Assembly (NCBI RefSeq): GCF_016097555.1
Contig: NC_054704.1
Span: 94,603,772 to 94,667,771 of the forward strand
Source: Gigantopelta aegis
Lineage: Eukaryota; Mollusca; Gastropoda; Neomphalida; Peltospiridae
Length of the DNA: 64,000 nucleotides
Reading direction: 5' to 3'
The notes under the pieces are model-generated. The model saw only the letters and a program-made list of their open reading frames with translations. It had not been told where the DNA came from and ran no database searches. The position numbers and the translations under genes were made by a program. Positions 2,488 through 58,436 of the stretch are shown piece by piece (positions within the stretch are counted from its first letter, which is position 1; each line of letters begins with the position of its first letter).

Positions 2488-17736
<15,249 letters not shown>

Positions 17737-26036: not shown

Positions 26037-28470
26037 TTAGACTTTCTTGCCGGTTACAAACTGGAAATGTCTCCTTTTAACACTACTTAACAACATATCG
26101 CTGTACGTTCTAAGTCTGTCATCTTTGATTTTCTCTTTCACCCCAGACACCCAGCGATAGTGGTACAATAATCCGTCCTTGGGAGACACCACGTACGCCT
26201 CAAACTGTTTTCTGTACATATGTTTGTCAACTAAATGAATCCTCACAGACCGAACCCTTTCTGGAATCACAATTTGCTTGGTTCTTGAAAATGCAGGCAA
26301 TATTTTTTTGTCTCTCCAAACACGAAGAAGAGGAGTTACACGATACAGCCGCGCCTCTTTCGACTGGTTATATCCTTTAGTGTCCATCCGCCAATTTCCA
26401 TTTGTGCCAAAGAAGGTGTTCCTAAACGCAATAGACCCAACATTTGGAGTACGTTTACGAACACTCTGTATCAAAGCCATCCAGGTTTTATGTTTTTGGG
26501 GCATAATTAGTTCATCCACGTCCGAGTACGCCAGATACCGCGACACGTGAAGATGCTTGTATAAGCAGTCATTGATTATAACATTCTGGCCGAAATAATG
26601 AATATCTTTTACAGGTATATCCCACTGCACGAGTTCAAGAAGACCCTCTTTTACATATCCACTGAGAACGAGGCTCACTTCCGGTGTCACACTGTAGTTG
26701 TATAAAACGAATCTCTGAGCGCCTAGAAGTATGTTCATTTCTATAAAAGAAATAATGGCATGTACGTGTTTGTAGTGGGAATGTAGCACGGGTCCGCATA
26801 CCGTTATGTTATTCTTATTCTTCTGTGATGGGTAGGTAATTTTTATGATGTTTGTTATCGAAGTTGAATTATTCGTGGTGACCGAAATCGCAAATGGCCT
26901 ACTTCGTTCTTTGACTGGGCATGATATAATGACAGCAGAATAGCTGAAATTAAAAAAGGTACAACAGCGTTTAATACACTTGGAACTTATGGCTCTTCAT
27001 TACCAATAAATAAAACAGAATTTTTTTTAATATCTAAATAATTACTTGTTAAAGAGTTGTCATACGTTTGCTGCCATTGTTAACATGTCTCCACTAATAG
27101 GTTCTGTAACGACCACACCAGACATCGCCATCAACGCAAATTGAGGAGAGTCATGAACTGCTCCTCTAACTTAAATTATGTGGAGTCTTTAAAGATATAT
27201 TACCACATCGATACCACATAAATTAAGGGGAGCTAAAATTGCCTTCCTTGAATTAGTTCCAAGGGAGTAATCTGGAGCCAGAATGATAGTTCTCCTGAAA
27301 TGGCGAGGTCTGCTAAACTTGCATATGGAATACAGAGGCGTCATTTTAACTAACACTACATTTGAATATGACCTATATTGTATATAAGAACCAAAGAAAG
27401 TGGATGATGTGTATTTACTAAGGCATTTAGAATAGATGGGGCGGGACGTAGCTCTGTGGCACAGCGCTCGCTTGATGCACGATCGATCTAGGATCGATCC
27501 CCGTCGGTGTGCATATTGGGCTATTTTTCGTTTAGCCAGTGCTCCACAACTGGTGTAACAAAGGCGCTGGTATGTACTATTTTGTCTTTGGAATGGTTCA
27601 TATAAAATATCCCTTGCTGCAAATCGAAAAGCCCATGAACTGGCGACAGCGGGTTTCCGTATGGTTCTTAACCATATGTCCAACGCCATATAACCGTAAA
27701 TAAAATGAGTTGTGTGCGTCGTTAAATCAAAAATTTCCTTCCATTAGAATAGATCGCCAAGTTACATTTTCTTTCTGTGACATGTAATTCTTTAATTAGG
27801 TAAGATAGGATACCACCAAAACAAATTGCATAGGCAGTGTTTAGTCAACTTAATAAACACTATGGATATAAATACACCCACCACTCACCTTAAAGAAAAT
27901 TATTAATATCGGTCTTCTAGAATTAATCAGAATTAATAGCATACCAGTAGTATTCAAACATTACCTTCTTTTCATTATATCGGGTAAATACCCAATATGC
28001 CCTTCAACTGGTTTTGGATTGTTGTCGTCTGAAGCATTCCATATGTGACACCGCACAGAAATCGTTGAATTCAGCACTTTGGCCATTCCTAATATTCGTA
28101 TTTCCCATTCCAAATCATCCAAGTACGACGAATAAACGTAAACGTTGCAATTGTCGTCTGCCATTTGCCAGTGCAATGAAACTAACGTTCTTTTCTTCAG
28201 AGCAGTCGCCGCTGTTTCTCTCTTGGAATAAATCCGTTTTCCAACATGATTACACAAACTAGTATTTTTGTCTTCAACCTGTCCGTTGTGGGGAAGGTGG
28301 CCATATCTCTTTGATGACTTTGATCCTACAATCGTGGAAAATCGTTCTTTATTAATAATATTTATTTCCAAGTCGCATTTTGCGATTTCCAGATACCACA
28401 ACGTTATGCTTGGAAGCATGCACGAAATGACTGCTATTACTATAAGAAATTGAAAATATCTTCTCCGCAT
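26037..28470 (-). CDS. GT92-family glycosyltransferase, copy A (2 exons)
   Basis: Exon 1 is 28470-27965 and exon 2 is 26943-26037, joined at a phase-2 GT/AG intron of 1,021 bp: DIMKR then SYSAVIISCPVKE. The product is 470 aa. Residues 1-28 hold a short basic N-terminus and one hydrophobic segment (FQFLIVIAVISCMLP), the layout of a type II Golgi membrane enzyme. The rest is a glycosyltransferase family 92 (formerly DUF23) domain: GAQRFVLYN, LLELVQWDIP, QNVIINDCLY, the acidic metal/nucleotide-sugar motif DVDELIMP, and the C-terminal DGLLYHYR. Known GT92 members such as C. elegans GALT-1 add galactose to core fucose on N-glycans; the acceptor here is unknown. A SINE sits in the intron. The paralogue is at 48341-57916. 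Confidence 0.92.
27165..27312 (+). repeat. Unclassified dispersed repeat, copy 2
   Basis: Shares AAATTAAGGGGAGCTAAAAT, GGGAGTAATCTGGAG and GGCGAGGTCTG with 15738-15945. Inside the GT92 copy A intron. Confidence 0.5.
27438..27745 (+). mobile_element. Full-length SINE
   Basis: GGGGCGGGACGTAGCTCTGT head through GGATCGATCCCCGTCGG to tail GTGCGTCGTTAAATCAAAAA. In the intron of the GT92 copy A gene, on the opposite strand. Confidence 0.85.
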
Positions 28471-29067
28471 TATTTACAGAAATATAAAATAAATAAATAA
28501 TTAAATAAATAAATAAGTACAAAGAGGAAAATGTAATACTTAGTAAAGCCTTTCGATAGTCTTGTTGAAAATTGTTGGATGAAAGAACTTGCGAGATCAC
28601 CTATAAAGATTTCACTTCGTCCGCTAAGGGTGTTAAACTAAACGCCACAGGTATGGATTAATAAACGTGCCTGGTCTATACGTCACTTCACAACCGTCCA
28701 GACGGCAAACTGAACGTTATCCGTCCATTTCAGCCAATCATAGACTTGCATTTGGAGAGTCCTAATCGTAAAGAACCGGTAGAAAAGCTGTTTTAATGAC
28801 GAAACACGCGACAATATAATATACGTTACGACGTGTTTGACCTGTCAAGACCCGCAGTTTGTATCTGTGTTATACAAATTTGTATACAAATGTGATATGT
28901 ATACATTACTACTATATTATAATTAAGTAATTGTCGCCATTATATTGTATGTATACAGGAGAGGGCCTAGTAAGTTGGAAAACTTGTGCCCGATTATTTT
29001 GTTGTTTATGCAATAAAATATGTTTTCAATGAATCTATGTTACATGTGTGACGGTCTTTCGAGTAAT

Positions 29068-33446: not shown

Positions 33447-34590
33447 TGTCACGGGGATCCTATAATACCCGTAACTGAATGAAACACGATTATCCAAATA
33501 TCTCTCCTAACTGTATATCTATTAGATCTCTATAACGGGCAGTTATACCCGCGTGGCTCGTCTAGGAATGATCAGAGATAAGATCTTATAAAAAGTATGT
33601 TTTATTATAGCACGTTTAGTTCACTAGAAAACACAACAAAAACACAATACACTTTGGAATCTGTATTAACCTACGCTGACAAATGTACTGCCGCAGTAGT
33701 TAATTAACAACAACAAATAATAACAACCCAGAACTGATCACTTAATTAGTTAATCTCTAGGTGTCTAGTTTACACAATATTCTAATCACTTCACCGTGAC
33801 ACAACACCCACACGTGTGATAATTGAGAAACGCTTCCAGGGGAACTTAATTAATAAAGGAATTACAACTCTATTCCTAACTGGTTAATTTTTAATTAACC
33901 CTTATCTACTCATTCAGTAACCTTGTAATACAGAATTAATACTGGTACCTATCACAATAAAGACAATAACCTACAGTTTACCTAGGTCTCTAGGATGACT
34001 GGTTAAGGTTTATATATATTAGAACAGTGAGCCTACAGTTTACTGCGTCAGATGACCGGCAGCACTGTCTAAATAATATTGGTATAATACAGTATTAAAA
34101 TATTTAAATTCACATCAATCACATCAAGGTTATACAACAGAGCAGAACTAATATTTACCAAGTCCAAACGAACGCGTTCCCTGGAAGCCTTCCAATATGT
34201 TTCTTCCCGATATCTCTAAAACCCTGGCTATTTATTATAAAATCCCAGACTGGTCCGGAGACAGTACGCGGAACCGAATCTTATGATGTGTATATCTCCA
34301 CAGCGACCAAGCGGTATTTTGTTTGTTACAAGCCTAGACTGGTCGTCCCCTAGTTCGCCAGCAATACCCCGAACGTACCGAACTAGCGGAGGTATTACGT
34401 AACTACTGGCCACATGGCCTCCGCACCTGGTCTGGGTGTGTATTAGAAGGAGCTCGACGACCGTCGCGCAGAGGTATTACGTAACAAAGTGCCCACCTGG
34501 GCTTAAGTGCATATTGGAACTGCACACGGCCCTCTAAAACAATTAATATTGCCACAGGCTAAAACAAAATTAAGAGCATGTTCCGTCACA
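33447..34590 (-). mobile_element. Solo LTR with 5-bp target duplication
   Basis: Starts TGTCACGGGG and ends CCGTCACA; flanked on both sides by AGAAC (33442-33446 and 34591-34595). It is the inverted homologue of 3-1067 over almost its whole length. No internal retroelement sequence lies next to it, so it looks like a solo LTR left by recombination. Moderate divergence between the copies suggests they are not very recent. Confidence 0.75.
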
Positions 34591-35969: not shown

Positions 35970-36280
35970 TTTAATATTACAAAGGTCAACCTATTTGTAA
36001 TCATCAATAAAGAAAAAAAACTTTGAAAAAAGCATTTATCTTTTTTATTATTTTTTTTAAAATGAAAACTCTATTTTCTAAACTGGACTGTATTAAAGGA
36101 AACATGACACGTAACCACATTATAGCTCATTTTAAAAACAAAATGATATAAAAATAATATACAAATAAGTTTATAACAATAAAATGCGTGTAGTTATCTT
36201 AAAACGAAGAAATTACACCGATCAGTATCAAAGTATGATTTATGCATATTTTTCCGTAAGCTTTCGGAAAAAAACGAAAG

Positions 36281-36288
36281 TGACGTCA
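36281..36288 (+). promoter_or_regulatory. CRE-like palindrome, left promoter of transposon
   Basis: GTGACGTCAGAG, containing the full palindrome TGACGTCA, lies about 70 bp upstream of the THAP start codon. The same 12-mer occurs facing the other way near the right end. Confidence 0.5.
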
Positions 36289-36355
36289 GAGCCGCTATAC
36301 TCTTTCATTGTTTATATATGGAGTAAGGGGCTTATGATCTTTTCAGAGCCCAACA

Positions 36356-37028
36356 ATGCCGTACTGTGCGGCCTTTGGGTGTCAAAATAAACAGTTTAAA
36401 GGATCGGGATTATCTTTTTTCGGTTTTCCAAAGGATTGTATTCGAAGAAAGGCGTGGATATTTTATTGCAAAAGAAAAGATTGGACACCAACGCCGTATA
36501 GTACTTTGTGTTCCGTACATTTTTCACCTTCAAATTACGAGACTTTTCCAGCAACGAAAGCAAGTTACGGATATCGTAATGCTAGAGCAAAATTATTTGT
36601 AACAGCTATCCCTGATGTTCACCTATTACTAGCACCAGAAGAGCCAAAGACGCCAAAAACATCACGAGGGGCATATGCTAAACGAAGACAAGCTGAGGTA
36701 AGTTTATCTGTTCATTTCATTTTCTTGTGCATGTCGAAATACTTCCATCCCAACTTCCAATAGAAGTGTTTGGGTTTTTTCATTATCAATAATTACACAG
36801 TAATTTGATAATTTTAGGACTTTCCTTTGACACATTATAAATACTTATAAATATTAGGGTTACCTTCCCTCTTAACGGACTAGATAATGCACGTGTACCT
36901 AAAAGAAATTACTTTATTTTCAATATTTTTGCTCTCACCAGCACGAATCGGAAAGAGAGAAACTGTATGTTCCGGGGGAATATTTTAACATGGATTTATG
37001 TAGATACAAAAATACTATTATCAATTAA
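36356..37028 (+). CDS. THAP-domain protein, N-terminal exons of Kolobok-like transposase
   Basis: Exon 1 is 36356-36697 (114 codons). It starts MPYCAAFGCQN and has the C2CH zinc-finger signature of THAP domains: Cys-x4-Cys near residues 4 and 9, TLCSVHF with the second Cys and His near residues 57-60, and a GFPKD motif plus aromatic and proline positions. THAP domains bind DNA and occur in P-element and Kolobok transposases. The exon ends QAE before a good donor (GTAAGT). The most likely next exon, 36942-37028, follows CTCTCACCAG in phase 0 (HESEREKLYVPGEYFN) and soon meets a stop. The exon-1 frame would also read on to 36763 if unspliced. I do not find the expected DDE core downstream, so this is either a broken transposase or a short THAP protein. 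Confidence 0.75.
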
Positions 37029-38811
37029 TTCTATGTTTTGACCAGAAAGTTAATTATTGATAATCCACCAATTTACAGAATATTGTATTCATACCAAATA
37101 CATCCATTTTATGAATCCAAACTGGTGTACACATACAATTAGTATTGTGTCAAAGAATTGTTCAAATACAATATGTGCTGCTAAAATATTTTATTCATTA
37201 ACAGATACAGGTATCAAACATGTATTGGAATATATAAACCAACATTTGTCCAGTGAAGGATATATGGTAGCCCCACTTCCATGGCTAGTAATATTCAACG
37301 TTGGGCTAGTAAATAACTACTATTGCCATGCCCAATGGCATTTTTTGGGTTAAATGTTGCAGTTAAGTCTATTTTGTAAATATGAATATCCTGCCCCAAC
37401 CCCTCAATGTTAGTGTTTTTAGAGTTTAGGTGACATATTTGATTATTACTGTTATTTAGTAAAATTGTATTAACTTTCAAGTAAAGTAGAGCTAGTAAAT
37501 TTATAAAATCACTGATCCCATGGCTAGTGGATTTTATAAAAATTCTAGAAGCCCTGAGGATATAATCGATAAAGATACATGATACAAGATAAAAACTTGG
37601 GTTGGGGGAATTCAAATCAATTGTGTCGTTGAGATTGTTGCTATTGTCAATCATCAACAGTTTAATTATTTATATTAATATACATTGTTGACGGTTTGGC
37701 ATATCAGATAATGATGAACAGAAAGAAGAAACTGTCCAAAAACTATAATTTCTTTACTGACTGGGGTTTATATTTTGAATTCGAATTAAATCAGATTATC
37801 ATACAAATACCAACAAAAGGCAAAATATAATATATTATCTAAAAATATATAATAAATTGCAAACAATAATTCTACAGAATTAAATGTCTTGCCTACCATA
37901 AACTTATTCAGTGTCATTAATAGTGCATCTGTAGATATATATCCATCTCAATGAATGTTATTTTTGTTTTTTAAACATTAAAAAAAATTAAACTTCAAAA
38001 TTTTTTATTAACATTTTTAAATAATAAATTTTGACATGCACTGGGATGAACATTCATAGATAGAACTATAAATGCAGCTTTACTGATGCAGGACATATAA
38101 TTTATGAGAAATGTAGCTACATTTGTACAATCAGTGTTGAGCTAAATGCAAAAGTTGATGCTGCAGCCAACGAAAAAGTAATACCTATACTTCGTCTATA
38201 CTTCGTCTGTTTAGTTTGTACATGTATTGTAAAGATAAGACAAAAATCACCAGACTTAGCAACTTCAGGATAACGATGTTGTTGACAACTGGTATGGTTA
38301 CTGGTTATAAACTATATTATATGAATATTGTATGAGAAGTTTATTTTTGCTCGACAGTTCAATTAATTAGGATTTTATGAACTTATTTTGATAATGAAAA
38401 CACTTAAAACCAGTAAATATAATTGGTTTCATAAATTAACATTGTTTCATCAGTAGTATTTGATATACATATCATTTATTAGTTGTTTAAGTGAACTGGA
38501 CAAAATGTCACGTCCTGGCTCGTACTGAAATTTTAAAAAGTAAATATTACATCATACAGGATATTTTTTTAGTAATTTGCTATATGGCATTTAGAAATAG
38601 ACTGGATATTGTATTAAACAGTGTATTTCAATAAGCAAACATTCTACCAGGAGAGTAGAGTTTTGGAAATAACTGCAGTGTTAAAAAAGTGATGTCCATT
38701 TTTGTCACGTCCTGGCACATTTTACTTTTCACTTTATAAGTCTTTTTTTTTTTTTTATACGAAAAATGAAATTAGGCCTGACATGCTTATACTACTATAT
38801 GTAATGAATCC

Positions 38812-38942
38812 GGGTCGTTTCGCCCTTATTCTTATTCGCCCCCGAGTCGTTTCGCCCTTATTCCCGTTCGCCCCGAGTCATTTCGCCCTTAGAATGAGTC
38901 GTTTCGTCCTCCATTATGAGTCGTTTCGCCCCTATGTATTGG
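38812..38942 (+). repeat. Array of GAGTCGTTTCGCCC units
   Basis: Five or so copies of GTCGTTTCGCCC with spacers of different lengths, plus extra TTCGCCCC copies. GC-rich against the AT-rich surroundings, inside the transposon. Confidence 0.8.
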
Positions 38943-39107
38943 GGTGGTCCGAAACAAAATGTGGACAACTACAATAAATTGCTCCTACCTTAATTACTCA
39001 TTATACTACAAAGATATATTTGTTTAATACCGATTCTATTCGAGATCAAGAAAAGGCCCAAAGAGGCCCAAATTCAAGTAATCACATAGGCTACTCATGC
39101 TAAGGAT

Positions 39108-39262
39108 GACCTGCTAATTAAGCAGACAATCCCCTGCAAGGCTATATTGTACCAGGAGTAAATATCCCTTCAGATTCTTTTAACTGCTAATTAAGCAGAT
39201 AATACCCTGCAAGATTCTCTTGTACTTTCAGTTTCTCCGAGCTGCTAATTAAACAAACAATA
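39108..39262 (+). repeat. Three spaced copies of CTGCTAATTAAGCAGA
   Basis: GCTAATTAAGCAGACAAT and related blocks recur at about 39112, 39185 and 39243, the first two each followed by CCCTGCAAG. Non-coding. Confidence 0.6.
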
Positions 39263-39827
39263 GACTCGCTCAATGATTACATCTACTACAATGAATTGCA
39301 TTAAAATTACATTTTGTTATAAGTTTAAAACCAAATACAAAGACATAAACGCACTCTTTAAACTACATGACATCATTTTGTGTTTGCCAAATCGTGATGT
39401 CATATTTAGTACCAACAAGGTAATTGGTTTGGAAGCGTCAAATTATCCAATAATACTGTTCGATAAACCAATGCAGAATATTTCTCACTGAGAAAATATG
39501 AAAAATATTTCCCGCTACGAGTGACCTCTGGGGTAATAATAGCAAATATCTCTCACTTCTCTGTAAACCGTAAAGCAGCATTCTCGTTAAGAGATGGGTC
39601 ACACCCAAGTGTCAGCCCTACAATAATCAGAACATACAAGACTGTAGTCGTTCTGATTTAGGTATTCGCACAGTACGGTTTGATTGCATACGACAAGTTG
39701 TGCAACTAATCGCATAATGAGAACGCCCAATACCATTCTCCAATAGGTAACAAATAGCCATACATGATACAAATATCAGATGTTCTCCAATATGGTTGTT
39801 GATATACAATATACATTTAATTTTCAG

Positions 39828-40497
39828 ACTGCATCTTGCTGCTTTCCATTATAACGAAAATGGAAATAAAGCTCAAGTCGTAACAAAGGATGGCAATCTA
39901 TGTTGGCGATTGGTTTATCCCAAAGCAAAGAAAGGAAAGGATGCGGTCATAAAAGCTGTGAAGGAATCCTCTAGCTACAGTAAGTAAACACTGCACAGTA
40001 ATAATATTTGGTACATTAAACTACATATATATTATAGATTCAGGGTGAGATAGTAGAGTATTGACCTCAACCAGTGTTATTCCCCATTCAGACAAATGCT
40101 GTATGTCTATTTGCCACATACTGTACTGTTTACTATCTCATATATGTGAAATTGCATATAAAGTACCTGCTGCAGATGATAAATAATAAATGTAGCCTTT
40201 GTGATAGTTACAGGTTCCTCCCAAGATTATTAGATCTTCGACACAGAATACTAGTAGCTATAGTATAAAATGTTGGAGGTGTGCTCAAATATACCATTAT
40301 TATATTACAAGGAAGAACTAATCAACAGTATAATGCCTGTTGCTTCATTTTATATGTTTTCATATTTTTAAACTTCATTTTCAGAGTATGTGGATACACT
40401 GATGGAATCTTTAATGCAAAGACGATACCAGCTGGATAATTACGGAGTTGCAAGAACAGATGTCAAGCAGACAATGTCAAGCATGCCTGGATTCTAA
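39828..40497 (+). pseudogene. C-terminal exons of the Kolobok-like transposase
   Basis: Exons 39828-39979 and 40385-40497 join in phase. The first starts LHLAAFHYNENGNKAQVV and continues LVYPKAKKGKD; the second reads YVDTLMESL and ends SSMPGF. This matches the recalled C-terminus of a large family of invertebrate transposon-type proteins (L-AALHYNEN ... FPK-KKG ... YV--L). Both splice sites of the internal intron are good. The upstream part of that family, with an SPGHSAKYGSY-like block and a DRH/DVWH-like catalytic region, is not found between 37029 and 39827, so the middle of the gene is deleted or eroded. The tail could also be expressed from an alternative start. Confidence 0.6.
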
Positions 40498-40647
40498 ACA
40501 AATGACTATCACAGAGTGGAGAAAACAGAAGCTGTGCAAAGACACAGATCACGATTCAATGCTATTTGATAAGCTGTTTATGTGATGAATATCAAGTGAT
40601 GACCAAAACAAGATATTATAGTGTTATGAACATTTTTATTAATTTAT

Positions 40648-43600
40648 TTATGGTCTAGCATATTGAAAGCCGGTGTAGATTTCTGATGGGAAACTGTCTC
40701 TAATCTTCACAACAACACATGCAGGAAGCACACGGCGATTTCTTTGACCAATCCATCTCGCAAATCGTCTATAAGCAACATATCTGTAAAGGAAGAAACA
40801 GCAAAGAAATTGTAAATATTCAATACATCGTGCATATTTTATGGAAACATTACTGTTTCAATGTGTTTGCATCAGATGATTGTTGTTCTAATAATTATCT
40901 TTAGAAACTAAAACGTGACCATGTTTTAATTGTTTATTAAATAAAGGTCATTTTGTGAGGGCACATGTACCTTGAAAATATTGGCATTTAAATAATATCA
41001 CATGACTTTATATTTTTATGTGTACAATAGAGCTATTCTAGGAAATGCATTAAAAAAGATGAAATTGTATGCTAAACTATGCCAGGGTCTACTATGCTGC
41101 ATTTGACCATTAATTTTTACTGTGTCAAATGGATACAATTATGTAAATTGAATCAGATTGTTCTTCTTACTCGTGAATGGGATCATTGTCATCGAGTGGT
41201 CCGTCCATACGAACATAGTCCAACATGGCCAACTCCAAGACATGCATGTTGAGGCAGTTTACAATAAATCCCTCGTGCTGTGACACACACTCAACATCTG
41301 CCATGTCGGCCTTGTATCTAGCTGCTGGCACCTCCATACAACATAGGCATTCTTCTACAGTGGCCATCAAGGCACAATTACCACAGTCACACCTGAAACA
41401 AACATGTATTTATTAACCAAAAGTGAAGGAAATGGATTGTATTCTTAAAGATGTCATGAATATTTATTAAAAGTAACTGACCTACTTTTCTTTCCAACTT
41501 TTTTCTCCACAAAGACAGCAGACCCTAGTTTTATTAAGTACATAATAGGTACTACATACACTGAGAAGATCAGAAACACATTGGATGTTGAAAAATAAAT
41601 AATATGAGCAAGTTGTAAGCAGCATTTTGTAACAATGACTTGATAATATTAATATACCATAATCCCTTTTACGATTAAAAAAACACCCCGTTATTGATAA
41701 ATAGTAGATGTATATATTTTTTAATGTTTTTATTTGTAATGTGTGTTGGTTTTTTATTATTATTTATTGTAAAATACTTATGGAAGGCCTTGAAAAGAAA
41801 TTGTATGTTTCTGGAAAATCAAACCTACCAAGAAAAAAGGCTGGCTTTTATTTTTGATTTGTTAAAAAATGTTTGTGAAATGAGTACATGTACATATGAA
41901 ACACTTTATCTGGACGAACAAGGATGAATGTAGTTATTAATAGCTTGTATTTGTACAAATCTGGTCACTTCCCCTACCCCATGAAGAAAATAGTTGACAG
42001 GGCTTTAGATATCTCTAATTTGGACACAACAGGGATTTTTTTTTAAAGTACATCAAGGTCTTATAATACTGTAATGTTATTTCAATTACTGAAGGGCCGG
42101 CATGTTGTACTTAATTTGAGCATGTTTATGTTGGGTATACTTATTTGGAGTAAAGCATTTATCACCTTAGCTTCGTTGCAATCTAAAGCCCAGACTTCAT
42201 AGGAATATGATATTAATTCTTTAGGGATGTTCCACAATTGATCCAACAGGTGGGAGAGCACAATAACTATTTTACACTTGGTGATGTATAATTTTCTATG
42301 CATACATGATTTAAGCATATTTATTTTGTGGGTGGTGGGTATCTAAAACCGGACACCCTCCATCTTTCATGGAACAGCCCTTAGTTAATTACGCGTGTTT
42401 GTGTGTGTGTGTGTGGGGGGGGGGGGGGAATTAATATTTATATACATGTCCAAATAATAAATTATTATTTTATCATCATTTGTTATTATTATTGTTATTA
42501 TTATTTTATCATGACCTACTGAAAACCAGAAATGCCTGCAAACATCTTGAGGTACTAGTATTCTTTGAATTTGCTTCTTCGGCAATTGAAGTAAATTAAA
42601 CAATGTCACCATTTTTGGTGGGTACACTGAGGTGGTTTGATTCTCGGGTAAGCACTCAAAACTAACTTAATACTCCATACCCACAAGCTGTTTGAGCACT
42701 CAAAAGTAAAATGAGCACCGATATTACAGCACAGAGGTGGATCCAGTCATTACAACATTTAAAAAAGGATTCGTGAGTTTTCAGATGGCAAATGATCCGA
42801 GTTTCCAAAGGGACTGAAATCTCTAAAGGGGTTTGGGGGCATTGTGCCAGAAAATTATGAAATGTGTTAGCAGGGCAAATTAGTGTTATATTGTGAATGT
42901 TTAATTTGAAGAAAAAAAGAAAAGAAAAAAAAGGACATTCAAATTGATGCAAACTGGCCAGGATTTTATATTGGAGTGGGGAGGGGACCTACAATATGTA
43001 TGTGTGTAATTATTTGTAAAAATGGGTGGGACATAACCCACTGGTCTCATGCACTGTCGGTTTAGGATTGCCCATTGGACTACTTCTCTTTCCATCCATC
43101 CTTAACCAATGTCTGACGTCATATAACCGTAAATAAAATATGTTGAATAAAACACTTCTTTCTTTCCATCCAGTACACCATGACTCGTATATCAAGGACT
43201 GTAGTATGTGCTATCCTGTCTGTGGGTTGGTACACAAAGTTCACTTGCTACTAATGGATTTTTTAAAATTTATTTGTCATGTAATTTAGTTTGCATGGTG
43301 AGGGGCCCCCGAACCTGAAGTGCCCAGACCCAACCCAAGGTCTATATTCCGGCTCTGCCTTAATAACTGTAAAAAAAATGACCATATGTTTGATATCCAA
43401 TAGGCTAGCTGATGATTAATAAATCAATGTGCTCTAGTGGTGTCGTTAAAAAACAACTAACTTACTTTAAAAAAAAAAAGGTTTGATAAGAATGGGGTGG
43501 GGCATGGCCTCCCTCTCCCCACCCCCGTCTCTCTGGCGTAGCCAGAATTTTATATATTGGGGGGGGGGGGGGGAGAGAGAGACACTGAATACATGTATAT

Positions 43601-44182
43601 ATGATTTAAAAATAAAAAAAACCTAACAAAAGCAACAAACGATGGGGTGGGGAAAAGGCTTTCTTTCAGAAAAATTTAAATTGGAAATAATTTCAATTTG
43701 GGTTCACGTAAGAACAAAAGTAAATGTTTTGGGACTAACAAAAATACTATTGTTGTGTGCAATTTAGAAAACAATTGTCCTATAACAGTATAACTTATAT
43801 AACTTAGGCCCTATACCGTATACGTGGTCGGACACCGTTTGAAGGTTCTGACAACCGACGCTGATGTCGCGTATTCATTTAATTTTCAACTTCAACAGAA
43901 ATAAAAGAAGTATAATAAATGACAAACGTAATACAAAAATCGCGTACAAGCGGTACAAACAAAAGGTAGGTAATCCTACTAATAGTCATTACCGTCCACA
44001 ACTTACCAGCCAAGATCGCCAAATCTGCCGTCTGGTATGGGCCTGGCACCATCGGTGTCTCCACCCTCCGACTCGCTATCCGTTTCTTCTTCCGTATCAC
44101 TGTTGTTAATAAATATGTGTCTTTCTTCATTTACCAACGGCTCAAACTGATATGGCAAAATGTTTTGCGAACGAACATTCAT
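40648..44182 (-). CDS. P2X7-type ballast-domain protein, transposon-borne (3 exons)
   Basis: Exons 44182-44007, 41392-41171 and 40783-40648 join in phase at GT/AG sites to a 177-aa open frame. Residues 1-58 are an acidic lead with the short motif ILPYQFEP. Then come WCDCGNC (59-65), ECLCCMEVP, ECVSQHEGF, NCLNMHVLELAMLDY, EYVAYRRFARW, VLPACVVVKIRDSFP and IYTGFQ. These follow, in order, the cytoplasmic ballast domain of vertebrate P2X7 (WCQCGSC, LEELCC, LVLSRHVLQ, CAYRCYATWRFG, ILPSCCRWRIRKEFP, QYSGF), which binds zinc ions through Cys/His. No P2X channel, signal peptide or membrane segment is present. AATAAA overlaps the stop codon. The gene is convergent with the THAP gene in the same TTAA element; its role there is unknown. 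Confidence 0.9.
43020..43465 (+). mobile_element. SINE with internal rearrangement and MITE fragment
   Basis: A SINE head and tail (GGTGGGACATAACCCACTGG, CATATAACCGTAAATAAAAT), then a SINE body, then at about 43262-43375 a fragment of the hAT-like MITE seen at 3966-4173, then the SINE tail GTGGTGTCGTTAAAAAAC. In intron 1 of the ballast gene. Confidence 0.65.
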
Positions 44183-44274
44183 TTTTTTTGGTAAGCTCTG
44201 CTAGTCTTGGATTCTTTGTGAGCGGTACCGACTAATGCTAAGTGTAAGGCTTTTCAGATCAAGCGTCTCGTCTC

Positions 44275-44282
44275 TGACGTCA
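44275..44282 (-). promoter_or_regulatory. CRE-like palindrome, right promoter of transposon
   Basis: TGACGTCA, on the minus strand in the context GTGACGTCAGAG, 93 bp upstream of the ballast-gene start codon. It mirrors the left-end site. Confidence 0.5.
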
Positions 44283-44738
44283 CGGACCACGTGATCGCCT
44301 TGCTCATTAAAGATCGGCAATTTCCGCTAAGAGCTCGTATCTGGGGTTCTTTTATGGAGATATTTTAAGTAATTAATTTTTTATAATTTTTTTTTTTAGG
44401 TGATTCAATTTATAATTAATTGTACATGGTTGGTGCCAAATATGGTTTACGTGTCATGTTTCCTTTAAGCTGCTACAGTTGGTAACGACACGGCAAATTG
44501 TAGTGTGGTCTTTTTATTACATAACTTTAACAGTATAGTGCCTACCAATACATATCATCCCCCCAAAAACATTTACAAGCTATTATATTAATTTATATTA
44601 ATGCAAATGACCGACAGGTTAACAGGTGACGTCACAGTTTGAAGTTGAATTGCATCATTCTCCACATTAACAAGCTAATGGCTGCTATTTCACTGAATAC
44701 GCGATGAATATTTTCTATGTACTTTATATTTTTCAGGG

Positions 44739-48020: not shown

Positions 48021-48384
48021 TTACACGTTTAATATTCAAATGTCGATTTATTTTAAACTGTTACGTTCCACGTTTAATAGCCAATTGTCGATGTATTTTA
48101 ATACATGTTACGTTCCACGTTTAACTGTCAAATGTTGATTAATTTTAAACTATGTTAGGTTCCACGTTTAATTGTCAAATGTCGATTTCTTTTTAACTAT
48201 GTTACGTTCCACGTTTGTCAAATGTCAGTGTAGTTTAATCCATGTTACGTTCCACGTTTAATAGTCAAAATGTCGATGTATTTTAAAGTATATTACGTTC
48301 AACGTTTGAACAGTCAAATGTTGATGTATTTTAAACCGTGTTACGTTTCATGTTTAATAGTCAAATGTCGATGTTTGACATTGG
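48021..48384 (-). repeat. ~47-bp tandem array overlapping the 3' end of the GT92 copy B gene
   Basis: Eight imperfect units (TTACGTTCCACGTTTAATAG...CAAATGTCGATG) start near 48021, 48061, 48108, 48155, 48202, 48245, 48293 and 48341. The last, at 48341-48384, is coding: on the minus strand it gives the final residues HRHLTIKHET and the stop. The other units lie downstream of the stop and probably in the 3' UTR. Confidence 0.9.
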
Positions 48385-51300
48385 CCAATAACTGATCAGA
48401 ATGTATTCTAACTCTGTCGTCTCTGGCGGTTTCCGTCACTCCACGACAAAACCTATAGTGGTGTAGCAGTCCGTCGTCAGGGGAGACCAGATGGACCTTA
48501 AACCCAGCTCTGTACATGTCTTTGTCAATCAGGTGAATCCTGACCGCGGAGACTCGCTCGGATATCACGATCTGTTTGCTTCTTCTTTTCCATGGAAACT
48601 CTGTTTTGTCTCGACGTATTCGCAACAGCGGCGTCACGTCATACTTCTGAACGTCGGCAGAGTTCGAGAGACCGTCTGTATCCGGCTTCCATTCACTGTT
48701 AGTGCAGAAAAATGCATTCTGGAACAAAAGCGATCCAACATTTGGGAATTTTCTTTCAACACTCTTAATATAACTTCGCAAGTCGGCGTGTTTTTTAGGC
48801 ATTATTACTTCATCCAAGTCAGCGAACATGATGTATCTGGAGACGAACATGTTTCTGTACAGACAGTCGTTGTTTACAACATCTTGCCCGTAGTAATGAG
48901 CGTTTCGTACTGGCAGAGCCCAGTTTACAATCTCAAGCAGGCCATCGTTCACGTATGTGTCCAAAATGGTATTCACGTCCGGCGAAGCACTTGAGTAGTA
49001 AATAACAAATCGCTGCGCACCGAGAAGTCTGTTCGTTTCAATGATAGAGATGGTCTTATTCGTTTCTCTGAAGTTCGAATGTACCACGGGTATACACACG
49101 GTTATGTCCGTCCTTTTCCTGTCTGGGTATCTGACCTCTATGATGTTGGTGACATTTTTAAAATCATTTACAGTAACTGACACGGCAAAAGGTCTTTGTC
49201 CTTTCTTGACTGGACATGAGGTAATCGTACCAGTGTACCTACAAACAATGAATAATACAACGCATTAATTCCTTTAATTTTCAACATATGCATTATTCTT
49301 CAATTTTCAACAATCAACTATATTTTTCCTGGGCCAGTTTATAATTTTATTAAGGGCATTTTGTTGCATCTAAGTCATGCTTAAGATCTACAAACGTTCT
49401 TAAACTAATGATCAGTTACTGTACGTTATAAACAAAATTGTGCAACTAATAGAAAGAAAGAAGGAAATGTTTTATTTGACGACGCACTCAACACATTTTA
49501 TTTACGGTTATATGGCGTCAGACATATGGTTAAGGACCAGACAGATATTGAGAGTGGAAACCCACTGTCGCCACTTCATGGGCTACTCTTTTCGATTAAC
49601 AGCAAGGGAGTTTTTATATGCACCATCCCATAGACAGGATAGCACATACCACGGCCTTTGATGTACCAGTCGTGGTGCACTGGCTGGAGCGAGATGTAGC
49701 CCAATGGGCCCACTGACTGAGATTAAAGATGACACTATTTGAACATTTAAGCTGTGTGCACAGTGTAGACATCTAAACTGTTTACAATCAGGGGTGAGAG
49801 GTCGGGCTAGGCCTATTTCTCGTTCCTGCCAGTGTTCTACAGCTGGAGTAACAAGAACCGTGTAATGTATTATTATATATATGGGATCATTGTGCATACA
49901 CTTTAGATCCCTTGCTGCTAATCCAAATGAGTAGCCAATGGCGTGGCGGCAGCGTGTTTCCTCTCTCATTTTGTGAGTGGCCCTTAACCATATGTTTGAT
50001 ACCATGTAACAGTAATTGACATGTGTTGAGTACATTGTTAAAATTGTTATTCCTTATTGTATACAATGACTAAAATGTTTATAAACAACAATTACATGAC
50101 GCGGTGTAGCTCGACTTTCGAACTCTGTATTCGATGCTTTCCGTGAAATTTTTGAAATTTAATTAGATGTGCTGAGAAGCAATTTCCTGCATACTATAAA
50201 CATTGTTACAGTTTATCACAAATAATCAATTGCATTGTCTGCCCCTCCTACCCCCCACCTCATCTATCTCTCTTAAGAACGTTTTCAACCAAATCATAAT
50301 CTCGTGAGTGCTGCAAAACACAATGTTACCTTAACTTCATTGCCCATTTACTCTGCTCAAATTCAACACATTGACATTTGCAGATGGTATTTTTGTAAAT
50401 GTCAGTGATTATCTGATAATTTGACGCGCTCTGGCATCATGCATTATATTAATAATAAAAAATATATATATACAGTATATTAGTATGTATATGTAAACGT
50501 TGAAGAAGGTGTTGTAGTTCTGTTTAATAGTTTTTTGCAAATGTTACGTTTAATTCCTATTCAATCCTTGTTTTCTTTACATTTGCATGAAAACAAACCC
50601 AAACCCCGACAAGTTTTATATACAATATATCATCTAAAATGTACGAAGTTGACTTATTTCCATTTTACAAAATTCTCTGTATGTTTCGAATACAGGTTCG
50701 TTCTCCTATAAATAACTACGGCTAATCGCATAACAAAAGCATCACTCTATAGTGTGTTTCAAACTAATGTTGTTTTCCACCTTCCTAGCGGAATATATTG
50801 TAGTATGATCTATATTTAAGAAACAATTTGAAAACATAAGACAATAAACGGCGCGGATTCAGGCGGGGAGTCCAGGTGACACGCCTCCCTCTATTTTTGT
50901 CAAACAATATACAGTGTATATATATAGAATACACAACAAATGAAAACATTCTATCCACCTGTTGGAAAGCAACAACGGGTTTTGGGCCCCTGCTATTAAA
51001 CAAAACTTCTGGATCTGTGCTTGCTATGTCATTAATGTAATGTACTCATACAAAAATAAATATGCACGTGCAATCATAGATTATACTTCGAAAATAATAT
51101 GTTATTGACCATCGACTTGATATCTACAAGCAATGTTATAGTATTTTGGACATTCAGGGCCGTGTTTAGGGGATGGGCAAGTGGTGGAACCCCCCAAAAA
51201 ATCTGAACAATAGCTTTTTGGTTTACAAAATTGCTTTGCGCATTACAAAAAGTACAACTTCGTGCATTTTAAATGATGATTTGTATATAAAATATGTCGG

Positions 51301-54300
51301 GGTTGGCGTTTGTTTTCATGCAAATGTAAAGAAAACAAGTAATGAATAGGAATTAAACGTAACATTTGCAAAAAACTTAGGGTCTAAACAAATGAACAGG
51401 ACTATACAATCTAATTAAAATTAGCTCCACTATTACATGTGGACCTAAAGACAGCCAGTTGGAGCTCATGTCCACCAATCAAAACCTTACTTGCAGAATC
51501 CTGCCAGTGATTTAAAATAATTTGAAAACATTCCGAATTATCCTGAGGGTATACGATATGTTTCGTGTGAATTACGAACGCCTTAAAACATGTTTTATTT
51601 TATAAAATAAATAATTTGTAATGTAAAACTGAAGACTGATTTAGTTGGGGTTTTTTTTTATAAATAAATAAAGAATTTTTAATGTAAAATTGAAGACTGA
51701 TAACGTATTGGTATGGTTCGCTGTACTGCGGCCACTAAAATAGACTCGCCCGATATTTTTATGCTCCCAAATAATGTTATAAAAGGCGAAGTGTGATTGG
51801 TCAATATTTAAATTATTATTTACAGACGAAATGTTACCTGGACATTGGGGACTACGCAGTGTTGTTAGTTTTAAATCACTGGCAGGATTCTGCAAGTAAG
51901 GTTTTGATTGGTGGACATGAGCTCCAACTGGCTGTCTTTAGATCCACATGTAATAGTGGAGCTAATTTTAATTAGATTGAGGACTATAGTAGATAATTCA
52001 GCGAGATTTTTACTCAATCCTTATATTATATATTCTTAATATATTTCTAAATCAGATCAAATAACGGAATTAAAAAGATGAATGAATGAATGAATGAATG
52101 AACTAAAGTGTAAGAAAGAAAGAATCTTTAACGACATCAAAGTGCTAAACAATACATCGGCTGTTGGGTTTCAAACAAAATTAATGTAAGTGTACGAATG
52201 AAATGATGATCAAAATAAATTATCACTAAAAATTCAAAAGTTAAATTAATATAGTGTTAAGAGCTGCACAAAACTACAAACATCACAGGTATCTATATTT
52301 ACATTTTAAAATAAAATTATGAATCTTGTAAAAAAAATAAAAAGATTCCACCATATTTTGTCTATATAAATTATCTTTCCTCGTCGGCTTCAGATCCTAT
52401 TACACTACATTATCAGTAGCCCCCCGAGAAATGGAAGTAAACACTAGAGATTACACTCTCAGGCGAGATTAAATTGGGTTTATCTCACTGCTCTTACTGT
52501 TTTGTCTGCTTATTTAAACACATTCTTTTTTCTCAAGAAGTCTATTTTTGATAACACATGCGTTGTTTACATATGTACGTGTGTTGGCAATTTCAAGACC
52601 TACGACTGGCTGCTCCTAGGTGATGACCAGGTCACTGGTGTCATGCAGCCAATAAAAAACAACACCGTTGAAATAGATTACACTGTGACGTATAGTTAAC
52701 CTGACAATCATATGTCTGTGACGCGTAAGTTAGCTACAAGTGCAACGGTTGTAAATAACTTTGGGTTGAAAAAGATGTTAAAATTTGCATAAAACCTGTT
52801 TTGTTTTTAGGATATGTAAGAAATAGAACAATACATTCGTGTCCTTTATATACGGTACCATGTATCTCACAACTCGTTATTTAAAAACGTATCATACTCG
52901 CTTTCGCTCGTTAGATACGTTTTAAAGGCATACTGTCACGGATTTCTCTTATTTCTCTAAAAATGGATGCTAAATAAAAATTACATTAATTGTTGGAAAC
53001 CAAATCTAGCTATCGCATCACCTTAACTGAACCATGATGGAGTGAAATCCATGTCAACCCTCTCGGCAATTTTAGTTTTTGAATTATGGACCATTGCCAT
53101 AATTCAATTATTTTTACAAAATGTCATTAATAAATGGAGTATGGTGGTTATGAAGATGGTTGAATAAAGTACATTTATGGACAAATCAAATAATTTTTGT
53201 TAAAGTAATACTTTGTTAGACCATTAAATAGGTCAGTAGTCTGTGACAATATGCCTTTAAAACAATTTATTGTGAGATAAATGGTATCTAACGGCCGCTC
53301 ATTTATTATTCTCTATATAATGTTCATTGTAATCATTTACAACAGAACAGAACAGAACAGAACTTTATTTACACTTATGGCCCCCATTCGGTGGCATCAG
53401 AGGAACATATATAATAATAAACATACAAATTGTCAAGATGATTTCAGGAATATATATACCACAATACAAACAGATGAGCAGCTAAATATTACAAACAGTT
53501 AAAATTACACGTAAGTCAAGAAGCACAAAATTGTGTGCTAATAATTGATATAAACTTACACAATTTTTTAAGAACACTAATACGTTTTGAGCTGAAGAGT
53601 TGTTGGAATTTGTATATATTTGATCTATTTACATAGTATTTGTTAAGATATTTTAATCTTTCTTGTCTAAATTTTTTGCATATAAATAGATAATGAAATT
53701 CATCTCCAACAATATTGCTATTACAAAGCGTACAGTTTCTATTTTCATATAAACTATTTGTCCACTTCCCCTTTTCAACTGGTAAAACGTGATTTGAAAT
53801 TCTAAATCGAAAAAATGTTGTGTACATTGTTTTATCCAGAATGTTAAAATATGATTCTAGTTCCAATTGTTCTTTAAATATTCTATAAGTAGTTCCTTTG
53901 CTGGTCGTAAAGATGTCATTTCTCCATGTTTGTAGATACTGATCAGACAGTCTTCTCTTCACAACTCTTTTTAACCACTCCACTGATTTAAATGACTGCT
54001 GGTCTCAAACGTTATTCAATCCAAGCTGGTAAAATATATATCTGATGTTAATTATCCATTTATAATGCGTACCGAATTGAATAAAATCGTAATACATTAT
54101 TTGGTAAGCCTTTACAGATGGTTTTAGGCTTTTAGCCGTTAACAGGCGTGACCAAAAGCAAATTATTCTTAGATGTATTTTCAGAGATAGAGGTGTTCTT
54201 CCATATTCACCATATAACATATATATTGGAGTACTTTTCCTGACAGGCGCTAAATATCGTAAGAATTGAATATGAAACTTTTCTATAATATTTATATTTT

Positions 54301-57300
54301 CAAATCCCAAAATTTCACAGCCATATAGTAATATAGGAACAACTATCACAGTGTAATCTATTTCAACAAACCTTTCAAAACTGACACATCTTAAAATTAA
54401 TCGGTCTTTATTTGTATTATTATTATTTAAAATGCAGAGAGACAATATAAGACTAAGACGATAATATGCTGGGAATACAAATTTAAATCGTCTGCTATTT
54501 GGTTTTTTCGGTGTTTATGAAATTAAATTACTTTCTCGATAAACTACACTCACTTGATCTCTAAACGTAACTGTATATTGATGGAACGAATTGAGGAATT
54601 AAGTCAACCGTGTTACCGCTATTCAGTCCCACATTATATCTTTGAATGTTATACAGACATTAAGACACTAATTATTTCTTTCTCTCGGTAAACGTTTGTG
54701 TACTTTTGAAGCCATGTTTCTAATGACAGCCAACCGCTGTTCTGGATTTGCGAATACATGTTCTTATCTTTCAGTGAACTAGTTTACTTTGTGTTGTTGG
54801 CGGATATAAACACTCGAACCAGACACACGATTAGACATCTGGCGACTCAGAAATCAGACGTGGACGTGGTGTAGCTCAGTGCTAGAAGGAAGGAAGTGTT
54901 TTATTTAAATACGCACTCAACACATTTTATTTACGGTATATGGTGTCGGACATAATATATTATGGTTAAGGATCACACAGATATTGAGAGAGGAACCCGC
55001 TATCGCCACTTCATGGACTACTCGTTTCGATTAGCTGCAAGGGATCGTTTATATGCACCATCCCACAGACAGTATAACACATACCACGGCCTTTGATATA
55101 TAACACTGGCTGGAGTGAGAAATAACCCAATGGGCCCACCGATGGGAATCGATCCCAGACCGACCGCGCATCAAGCGAACGCTTTACCACTGTGCTACGT
55201 CCCGCCCCCTCGGTGGTAGAATGCTGGCCGTTGAGGTGTAATGGGTTGAATGCTGGCCGTCGAGGTGCAATGGGTTGAATGCTGGCCGTCCAGGTGCAAT
55301 GGTTTGAATGCTGGCCGTCGAGGTACAATGGGTAGAATGCTGGCCGTCGAGGTGCAATGGGTTGAATGCTGCCCGTCGAGGTGCAATGGGTTGAATGCTG
55401 CCCGTCGAGGTGCAATGGGTTGAGGTGCAATGGGTTGAATGCTGGCCGTCGAGGTGCAATGGGTTGAATGCTGGCCGTCGAGGTGCAGTGGGTTCAATGC
55501 TGGCCGTCGAGGTGCAATGGGTTGAATGCTGCCCGTCGAGGTGCAATGGGTTGAATGCTGGCCGTCGAGGTGCAATGGGTTGAAATGCTGGCCGTTGAGG
55601 TGCAATGGGTTGCAGTATCTACCGCTCTCAACAGACTCCGTTTTTTTCCCGATCCAGCCAGCCGATTTCCATAAACGTTTTTAAACAAATTTTCATTCAT
55701 TTGAAGTTATTTTCGTGCTTGTATCCAATTAATGTTCAAGCACGCTGTCCTGGGCACATTTCTCTGCTATCTGGGCTGTGTGTCCAGGACAGTAAGTTAG
55801 TTGTTGGTGAGAGAGAGAAAAGAAGGTGTACTGGTCTTACACCTACCCACTGAGTCGTTAAAACTCACTCTGGGTGGGAGGCGGTACCAAGCTGCGAACC
55901 CAGTACCTACCAGCTGTATGTCCTACAGCTTAACCACGACACCACTGAGGCCGGTTATAAACTAATTTAACTGGTTCCAATAGTGGCCAATTGGTTTAAT
56001 GCGTAGCATAAAAACCAGTCTAGCTAGCGTTAGCACTTAACGGCTAGCTGAATTGATCTCAGTGCAGCATGGCTGGTACATCAAAGATTGTGGCATGTCC
56101 TGTCCTTTCTATGGGAAAATGAATATAAAAGATCCCTGCCTGCCTTATCGGTAGGAGTAGCCTGTATGATGGCAGCGGGTTTCATGTTTTTCTCTCTATC
56201 GATCAAATGTAAAAAAATAGTATGTTATGATACACACCAAATGGTCGTAGTTTAAAATGTGCTCATGTGTCGTCAAACAAATAATATCCTTTCATTTCCC
56301 GAAATTTGATCTTATTCTGTACTCGGCCGTTTGCGCTTGCCAGGCCTAGATCTGAACAAAAACAACGCTGGCCCTTATCTACTGGGTCTTTCGTTCAACC
56401 AATTTGAGTACCACTGACATAAATCTGTTAGCAGCTGTATTCAATTAGAATAGGTTTCACTACTACGAATCACCTCCCCCCCCCCCCCCCCCCCCTGGAA
56501 TTTATTATTTGATGCATATGGCTTACAGATACAAAAACATGTTGAAAAACAAAGGTTAGGCAAATTACTGGATCGTTACGAACTTTTTCACAAGCCATAA
56601 TTATATGTATCTATAGTCTGTCCCATCCTCCTACACAAATGTTTGTTTTGGTTGGGTTTTTTTTTTATAATTTCAGTTTAGTTTGATGTATGAAGAAAAG
56701 AAAAAGTGTTTTGAAACTAACAAAAACAATTACTTTTATTGTTAGTAATTTAGAAAACAATGGGCTCAGAAATGAATAACTTATAGTAAATTCCATGACA
56801 TGAAAAAGACGTTTCCTATGGGAAGGACTGTAACTGACGGGAATAAATTAAGAGGTTGTGTCACTGTATAATGTTCATTTGATTATTTCTTGTTCCAGCC
56901 ACTGCTCCACAACTGGTGTAACAAAAGCCGTGGTATGTGCCGTGGTATGCCTGGTGCCTATAAAATATCCCTTGCTGCTAATCAAAAAGAGTAGCCCATA
57001 GAGTGACAGCAGCGGGTTTCTATTAACCTTTGTGGTCCGACGCCATATAACCGTAGGTCCTAATTAAAGCGTGTTGAGTGCCATAGACGTGCGGGCTTCC
57101 ATTTTTGTAGGGGGTGAAGGCTGGGTTTTGCACGAATTAAACGAAAATGCCCGAATCTGGATGACAACATTTGTTCACATTAGCTTTATTACCAAACAGC
57201 TATATAGAGTTGCAAACGAATCACTACACATTTTTACGTGGATTACAACTAATTTTGAGGGTAGAATAATGGAAATACATGGTAAAAAAGGTCTCAGGTT

Positions 57301-57916: not shown

Positions 57917-58436
57917 TGTTAATGGCAGGTTTCAAATAAACCAAATACAGTTATTTTTAGTTGTGGCGCTCTTATTCAGCTATCATGCGCCTCGGAAATC
58001 CAAAACGTATCCAGCCTGTATAGTGGAACTGAATACAGTCCATCATTTTCTAATTTCTCATTTTAAAGGTACAGTCGCACGGAGTACAGGGTTCGTTATC
58101 TCTCATACTGAATTATAACTTGGCTAACTCGCTTACATGCAGGAATTCATGCAGGGTGGGTCTAGATGGTGGTGAAGGAGTCGAGCCATGCTCCCTCGAA
58201 AAATATATGTTAATAACTAAGCTGGTTTACCGTTTAACACGTGTTCTTCCATCTTACGACCGAGGTAATTCTATATCAATGTATACCATGATCTTAGAAG
58301 ATTCCAGTATGCAAGGTGCCGCAGAACAGGGGTCAACTGAGAAATGTTCTTAATTTCAGGTTGGGTGGGGTTGGGGCAATTTATCGATATTAAAACCAGT
58401 GGCCCTACATTTTAGGTAGTATAAAATGTATTCGGC

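Follow-up and report, generated by a model that had tools for sequence, protein, structure and literature searches.

In the passages of Kojima and Bao 2022 (PMC9587614) drawn on here, the Kol0 lineage of the Kolobok superfamily is reported to encode a transposase together with a second protein, KolX. KolX is matched there to the ballast domain of the receptor P2X7, including its seven cysteines, and P2X7 is proposed to have arisen from fusion of a P2X4-like gene with KolX, and a like origin is proposed for the fish nanor protein; the sentence on Kol0 hosts lists vertebrates, annelids, cnidarians and sponges, and molluscs are named for Kolobok generally. The ballast domain of invertebrates is described by Rump 2020 (PMC7016195), where, as far as the main text goes, transposons are not named and the string 'transpos' is absent. 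In the parts cited here, that study takes linkage to two markers as ancestral synteny and records an Ixodes protein with a domain printed 'TAHP', probably meaning THAP, ahead of the ballast (ZCD) domain. Here we analyse a stretch of 64,000 nucleotides (the window) from the 1.149-Gb genome of the gastropod Gigantopelta aegis, beginning at C6:94603772. At positions 36093-44468 it holds a DNA transposon with TTAA borders, 18-bp inverted ends and two convergent genes. We are highly confident that this is a non-autonomous copy of a Kol0-type transposon of the Kolobok superfamily, whose parent of ~14.9 kb encodes a THAP-DDE transposase and a convergent KolX.

The transposon origin of the P2X7 domain is already in print (PMC9587614, 2022), and our search of the open-licence literature for KolX, Kolobok or transposon joined with the P2X7 ballast gave no relevant paper besides it. 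What is new here is a young family whose members in one genome include long parents, derivatives lacking the core and a short copy, a derivative which keeps KolX after loss of the catalytic core, and, as read from their sequences, KolX copies having both R546 and H547, two residues of the P2X7 guanosine site. The family in the window offers a clean, young and multi-copy case of the kind of transposon from which the P2X7 ballast is proposed to derive.

The element and its copies in the genome

The original prediction described perfect 18-bp inverted ends with TTAA on both sides, and two convergent genes which start 259 and 282 bp from the ends and stop 150 bp apart. All of this is present at the coordinates given below: the two ends agree without mismatch, the THAP gene begins 259 bp from the left end, at 36356, and the ballast gene 282 bp from the right end, at 44182, with 150 bp between the two stop codons at 40495-40497 and 40648-40650. 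The features of the element are as follows.

36093..36096, no strand: TTAA target site duplication, left (direct reading)
36097..36114, plus strand: left terminal inverted repeat AGGAAACATGACACGTAA, the 5'-RR end (pattern search)
36356..36697, plus strand: transposase exon 1 with the THAP DNA-binding domain, donor gtaagt from 36698 (PF05485, E 7.6e-15)
39282..39288, no strand: junction of a ~6.5-kb internal deletion, approximate, element position 3192/3194 being parent position 3304/9811 (parent alignment)
39828..39979, plus strand: C-terminal exon of the transposase, LHLAAFHYNENG...YPKAKKG (frame match and parent comparison)
40385..40497, plus strand: last transposase exon of the window copy, YVDTLMESL...SSMPGF and stop (frame reading, parent comparison)
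40648..40783, minus strand: KolX exon 3 (spliced frame)
41171..41392, minus strand: KolX exon 2 with the cysteine clusters CDCGNC / CLCC / VEC (spliced frame, P2X7 alignment)
43040..43470, plus strand: repeat resembling a short interspersed nuclear element, nested within the transposon, with limits set by eye (family D13, which has 8 copies in the window, includes its part 43165-43231)
44007..44182, minus strand: KolX exon 1, start codon at 44182 (spliced frame)
44190..44464, minus strand: right subterminal region, also found in a short non-autonomous copy of 563 bp (copy comparison)
44447..44464, minus strand: right terminal inverted repeat, an 18-bp copy of AGGAAACATGACACGTAA (zero mismatches against the left repeat)
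44465..44468, no strand: TTAA target site duplication, right (direct reading; copies elsewhere)

Within the window the 18-bp repeat has three matches at up to 3 mismatches, namely the two ends and one with 3 mismatches, against 0.08 expected. Further inverted pairs flanked by TTAA are also present in the window, so the end pair by itself is weak evidence, and it is the copies elsewhere in the genome that settle the question. The genome search proposed with the original prediction, for the end together with TTAA, shows 1191 matches at up to 3 mismatches, compared with 26 for the reversed pattern, and finds the element as TTAA-flanked copies at unrelated sites. Among 10 copies inspected at both ends, TTAA followed by the repeat is seen at 9 left ends, and 8 copies have TTAA on both sides with unrelated flanks. 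The notion that the ballast gene is an ordinary gene of the host, flanked by 18-bp ends by chance, could appeal to the other TTAA-flanked pairs in the window; it is rejected, with hardly any probability left to it, by the recurrence of the element at unrelated sites with clean TTAA borders. Full identity of both 18-bp ends is peculiar to the window copy, since among the 8 other copies whose right end could be read, 7 have one mismatched base between their own ends and the parent on C3 has two. Overall, the element belongs to a recently active, young multi-copy family.

Its assignment to Kolobok follows several features. TTAA is duplicated at the target, as seen on both sides of 8 of the 10 copies. 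The window copy has AG...CT termini, as do 7 of the 8 others with a readable right end, in agreement with the 5'-RR...YY-3' ends given for Kolobok in PMC9587614, and the exception is the C3 parent, which ends in CG. The transposase has an N-terminal THAP domain, a word not used in the consulted part of that paper, while PMC6004289, in the part consulted, gives THAP as usual in Kolobok transposases. In the parents on C8 and C3 a DDD/E pattern with C/DxxH between the second D and the E can be read by eye, and it is absent in the core-deleted window copy; the parents also have a CEHETC stretch where a zinc finger is sought between DxxH and E, read without alignment to reference Koloboks. The second gene expected of Kol0, that for KolX, is found in the window copy and in both parents. 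A TTAA element of piggyBac type, sharing the same target, is very improbable, as the 5'-AG...CT-3' ends fit Kolobok according to the cited part of PMC9587614, the transposase combines THAP with DxWH, and none of the Pfam families, piggyBac among them, is matched by the three core frames at E up to 1.

An internal deletion that spares KolX

Two parent copies of ~14.9 kb, on C8 and C3, contain both genes of the window element plus the catalytic core, and are 99.69% identical across 14,884 aligned bases. Both have the THAP exon, a 357-aa stop-free frame with the first part of the core (GGDARCDSPGH), further frames with LVTDRH, DVWH and LEVYHN, and an intact KolX. Apart from the ~6.5 kb that it lacks, the window copy corresponds to a parent, with BLAST identity of 98.2-98.4% beyond the gap and 0.8% substitutions outside the listed exons, and only a few bases of shared sequence lie at the deletion breakpoint. 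The 201-bp junction occurs at full length in at least 7 places including the window, six of them at 100%, with 40 of 1187 candidates scored. A still shorter copy of 563 bp, in locus L045, consists of the two ends joined.

The original prediction of a THAP transposase-like gene holds for the DNA-binding part (PF05485, E 7.6e-15); the gene does not encode a whole transposase. The first exon ends in phase 0, yet the exon at 39828 requires two preceding bases; no catalytic core appears in the stop-free stretches between them, and the transposase frame P0001 matches the window element solely at the C-terminal exon, with E 0.046. The last exon also stops earlier in the window copy, while the two parent copies continue beyond GF. 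The transposase of the window is incomplete, a ~6.5-kb internal deletion having taken out its DDE catalytic core.

The second gene remains whole. Its three exons join at GT/AG junctions into an open frame of 177 aa, whose N-terminal part is acidic. The claim that this protein carries the motifs of the C-terminal ballast of P2X7 is borne out, as the spliced protein matches PF20478 with E 5.8e-11 (43.1 bits, cut-off 23.5), its best match among solved P2X7 chains has E 1.5e-5, and the motifs stand in order when read by eye. The seven zinc-binding cysteines likewise follow the P2X7 order by eye (CxCxxC, CC, C, C), with the CC pair falling in different alignment columns. The exon 2 stretch 41173-41396 is found at 16 places of the genome among the matches listed, 6 of which are at 100% with the top score. 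Neither KolX nor the transposase C-terminus has relatives in the viral contigs searched.

Among three core-deleted copies read, two, the window copy and L030, have an open KolX frame, and in L029 it is broken. The window KolX differs by 1 substitution in 534 from both parents and from L030, compared with 0.8-0.9% elsewhere (P 0.05-0.19, not significant), and L029 has 14 substitutions in 526 against 1.7% elsewhere, showing no deficit. These counts bear on whether the core-less derivative is a repressor or a domesticated locus, with a KP-like THAP protein and KolX, and not a passive copy. The open frames in two of the three copies are in its favour, as is the 100% KolX exon 2 that six junction copies also have in common; the copies are too young for selection to show, and KolX is broken in L029. 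We regard this explanation as quite unlikely.

Ballast genes beside transposases

Matches to the Pfam ballast model (24 places) were merged with those to KolX exon 2 (16 places listed), giving 38 distinct ballast loci, one of them a 52-bp fragment; the list of 24 is incomplete, the window's own copy being absent from it. Two transposase queries, merged, gave 44 distinct loci. Seventeen of the 38 ballast loci have a transposase of the same type at most 20 kb away (16 of them at most 10 kb), and all 17 pairs are tail-to-tail, while by chance ~0.0015 per locus, or ~0.06 for the 38, would be expected. Ballast genes do recur beside transposases of one type, which was the other test suggested with the original prediction. 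Of the other 21 ballast loci, for which the lists give no partner, eight hold core-deleted copies belonging to the window family, and L010 and L022 gain a convergent partner by profile search. This search finds a transposase at 10 of 20 fetched ballast loci, always convergent, one of the 10 being L013, the source of half the profile; its controls, 55 kb of the window outside the element and the reversed loci, gave no transposase. As an observation apart, long frames ~25% identical to the KolX-linked transposase occur away from listed ballast genes, at C4:46123650, C10:66552652, C13:23189084 and similar places, and their sequences would perhaps represent another lineage without KolX.

Eleven of the 38 ballast loci lack both an identified transposase partner and an identified deletion derivative. 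In six of them the Pfam match contains stop codons, and these may be relics; another of the eleven, L026, has a weak convergent transposase match (E 0.41). The eleven loci also speak for a different history, in which this transposon family picked up a ballast gene of the host a single time, as a passenger, and KolX has no role in transposition. In the same direction, TTAA plus the end has 1191 matches, compared with 16 places listed for KolX exon 2, which suggests that KolX is missing from the majority of elements having such ends, and the one short copy read (563 bp) is simply the two ends joined; both indicate that KolX is not required in cis. Divergent KolX types within one genome nevertheless have the same tail-to-tail arrangement in all pairs found (17 of 17), and the cited part of PMC9587614 reports Kol0 in vertebrates, annelids, cnidarians and sponges, neither of which is expected from a single late capture. 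We therefore consider such a capture unlikely.

Like those eleven loci, the 27 of the 44 transposase loci with no ballast gene listed inside 20 kb limit the pairing of ballast genes with transposases. Several further points weigh against the reading as a Kol0-type transposon. For other KolX families (L012/L016, L018/L019 and L010/L017), whose ends were sought by copy comparison, no clean TTAA border was found. The name Kolobok comes from comparing the TTAA target, the 5'-RR...YY-3' ends, the THAP domain, the DDE/DxxH pattern and KolX with the descriptions in PMC9587614 and PMC6004289 and not with reference sequences, and the Pfam search of the three core frames, with 0 families at E up to 1, lends it no help. 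The conservation of KolX between copies is only suggestive, being a weak signal to which L029 is opposite in direction. Moreover, the C3 parent is without TTAA at its right end, the C8 parent is frameshifted in one C-terminal exon, and the match of the C9 derivative (L043, L044) ends 16 letters short on each side (TTAA and 12 bp of the repeat); with these defects, full activity is not established for any copy.

On balance, the original claim that ballast genes are part of a mobile element is supported by its own test, through the recurrent pairing and the TTAA-flanked copies, with the reservation that the transposase adjoining the ballast gene in the window copy has lost its core. In the direction already published in 2022 (PMC9587614), from transposon to P2X7, the P2X7 domain would likely stem from transposons of this kind.

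The ballast genes were also surveyed for the residues of the P2X7 guanosine site in 16 KolX C-terminal exons, of which L017 and L028 do not show positions 546-547 and the rows L016 and L022 were read by eye. R-H at positions 546-547 is found in five of the 16 (L009, L010, L011, L015 and L025), all with R578 as well; L013 also has R-H, with an unclear exon start which keeps it outside the five. R578 is kept in all 16 exons (by eye), R574 in none, and K583 in L021 alone, and the window KolX has only R578 among R546, H547, R574, R578 and K583. A convergent transposase is present at L009, L010 and L015, and none was found at L011 and L025. The cited part of Rump 2020 (PMC7016195) states that H547 was not found in invertebrates. 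By analogy with the GTP-binding domain in the P-element transposase (PMC7776569, as described in the part cited), KolX might be a guanine-nucleotide-binding cofactor acting in trans for the Kolobok transposase, from which the P2X7 ballast would have inherited its guanosine site. We hold this idea as doubtful; if true, core-less derivatives with KolX would be more than passive passengers. A separate observation on L009 is a 237-aa stop-free ballast frame at 4219-4929, which apparently runs through an intron and is without the CC pair.

Neighbouring sequences, proposed mechanism and known systems

The transposon sits between two minus-strand glycosyltransferase 92 frames, 26037-28473 and 48341-57931 (PF01697, E 9.4e-35 and 9.6e-34), each with an upstream frame that has no Pfam match and is maybe a first exon. 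A large inverted repeat, at 25-908 and 33603-34488 of the window, has three blocks which are 88%, 91% and 99% complementary, with arms ~33 kb apart and a glycosyltransferase 92 frame between them; none of the frames of at least 130 aa was recognised as part of a mobile element. In addition, a 24-bp tandem repeat runs from 18798 to ~19800 and is open in several frames on both strands. Elsewhere in the genome a second family of short TTAA-flanked repeats, with ends like TTAAAGGGACATTCCTGAGTTTG, is seen in L013 (1018), L018 (1315 and 1703) and L011 (7001-8009).

For the Kol0-type element, we propose a mechanism which derives from family membership and copy structure, not from an assay. The transposase encoded by a parent would bind the ends through its THAP domain, pair and cut them, and join the element to a TTAA, and core-less copies, including that in the window, would be mobilised in trans. 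KolX, with less confidence, would be a zinc-stabilised accessory protein of transposition that acts in trans, which seems its most likely role; acting in this way, it could be kept by a copy without the core. The THAP exon left in the derivative would be at most a competitor for end binding, comparable to the KP protein of P elements. A transposition assay with KolX would bring the original function of the P2X7 ballast within reach of experiment. As a suggestion only, the linked markers which Rump 2020 (PMC7016195), in the part cited, takes as ancestral synteny could be a transposase travelling with KolX.

Compared with known systems, the element shares with the Kol0 lineage (Kolobok-1_XT type) the TTAA target, the 5'-RR...YY-3' ends, a DDE transposase with DxxH and a KolX with the ballast cysteines, and differs by a 14.9-kb parent with introns and convergent genes and by a window copy without the DDE core. 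KolX resembles the C-terminal ballast of P2X7 (PF20478) in its zinc cysteines and in the motifs AYR...W and SC/AC...IR..FP...YTGF, in the same order by eye; it differs in being a stand-alone protein of 177 aa which misses R574 and K583 of the rat guanosine site, the window copy being also without R546-H547. The P element and its KP derivatives, as described in the part of PMC7776569 cited, likewise have a THAP transposase and copies with internal deletions, among them some that code for repressors such as KP; unlike the window element, P elements make 8-bp target duplications and have a GTP-binding domain within the transposase. Finally, the stand-alone ZCD genes of invertebrates, in the account of Rump 2020 (PMC7016195) drawn on here, have the same domain as KolX in short proteins.

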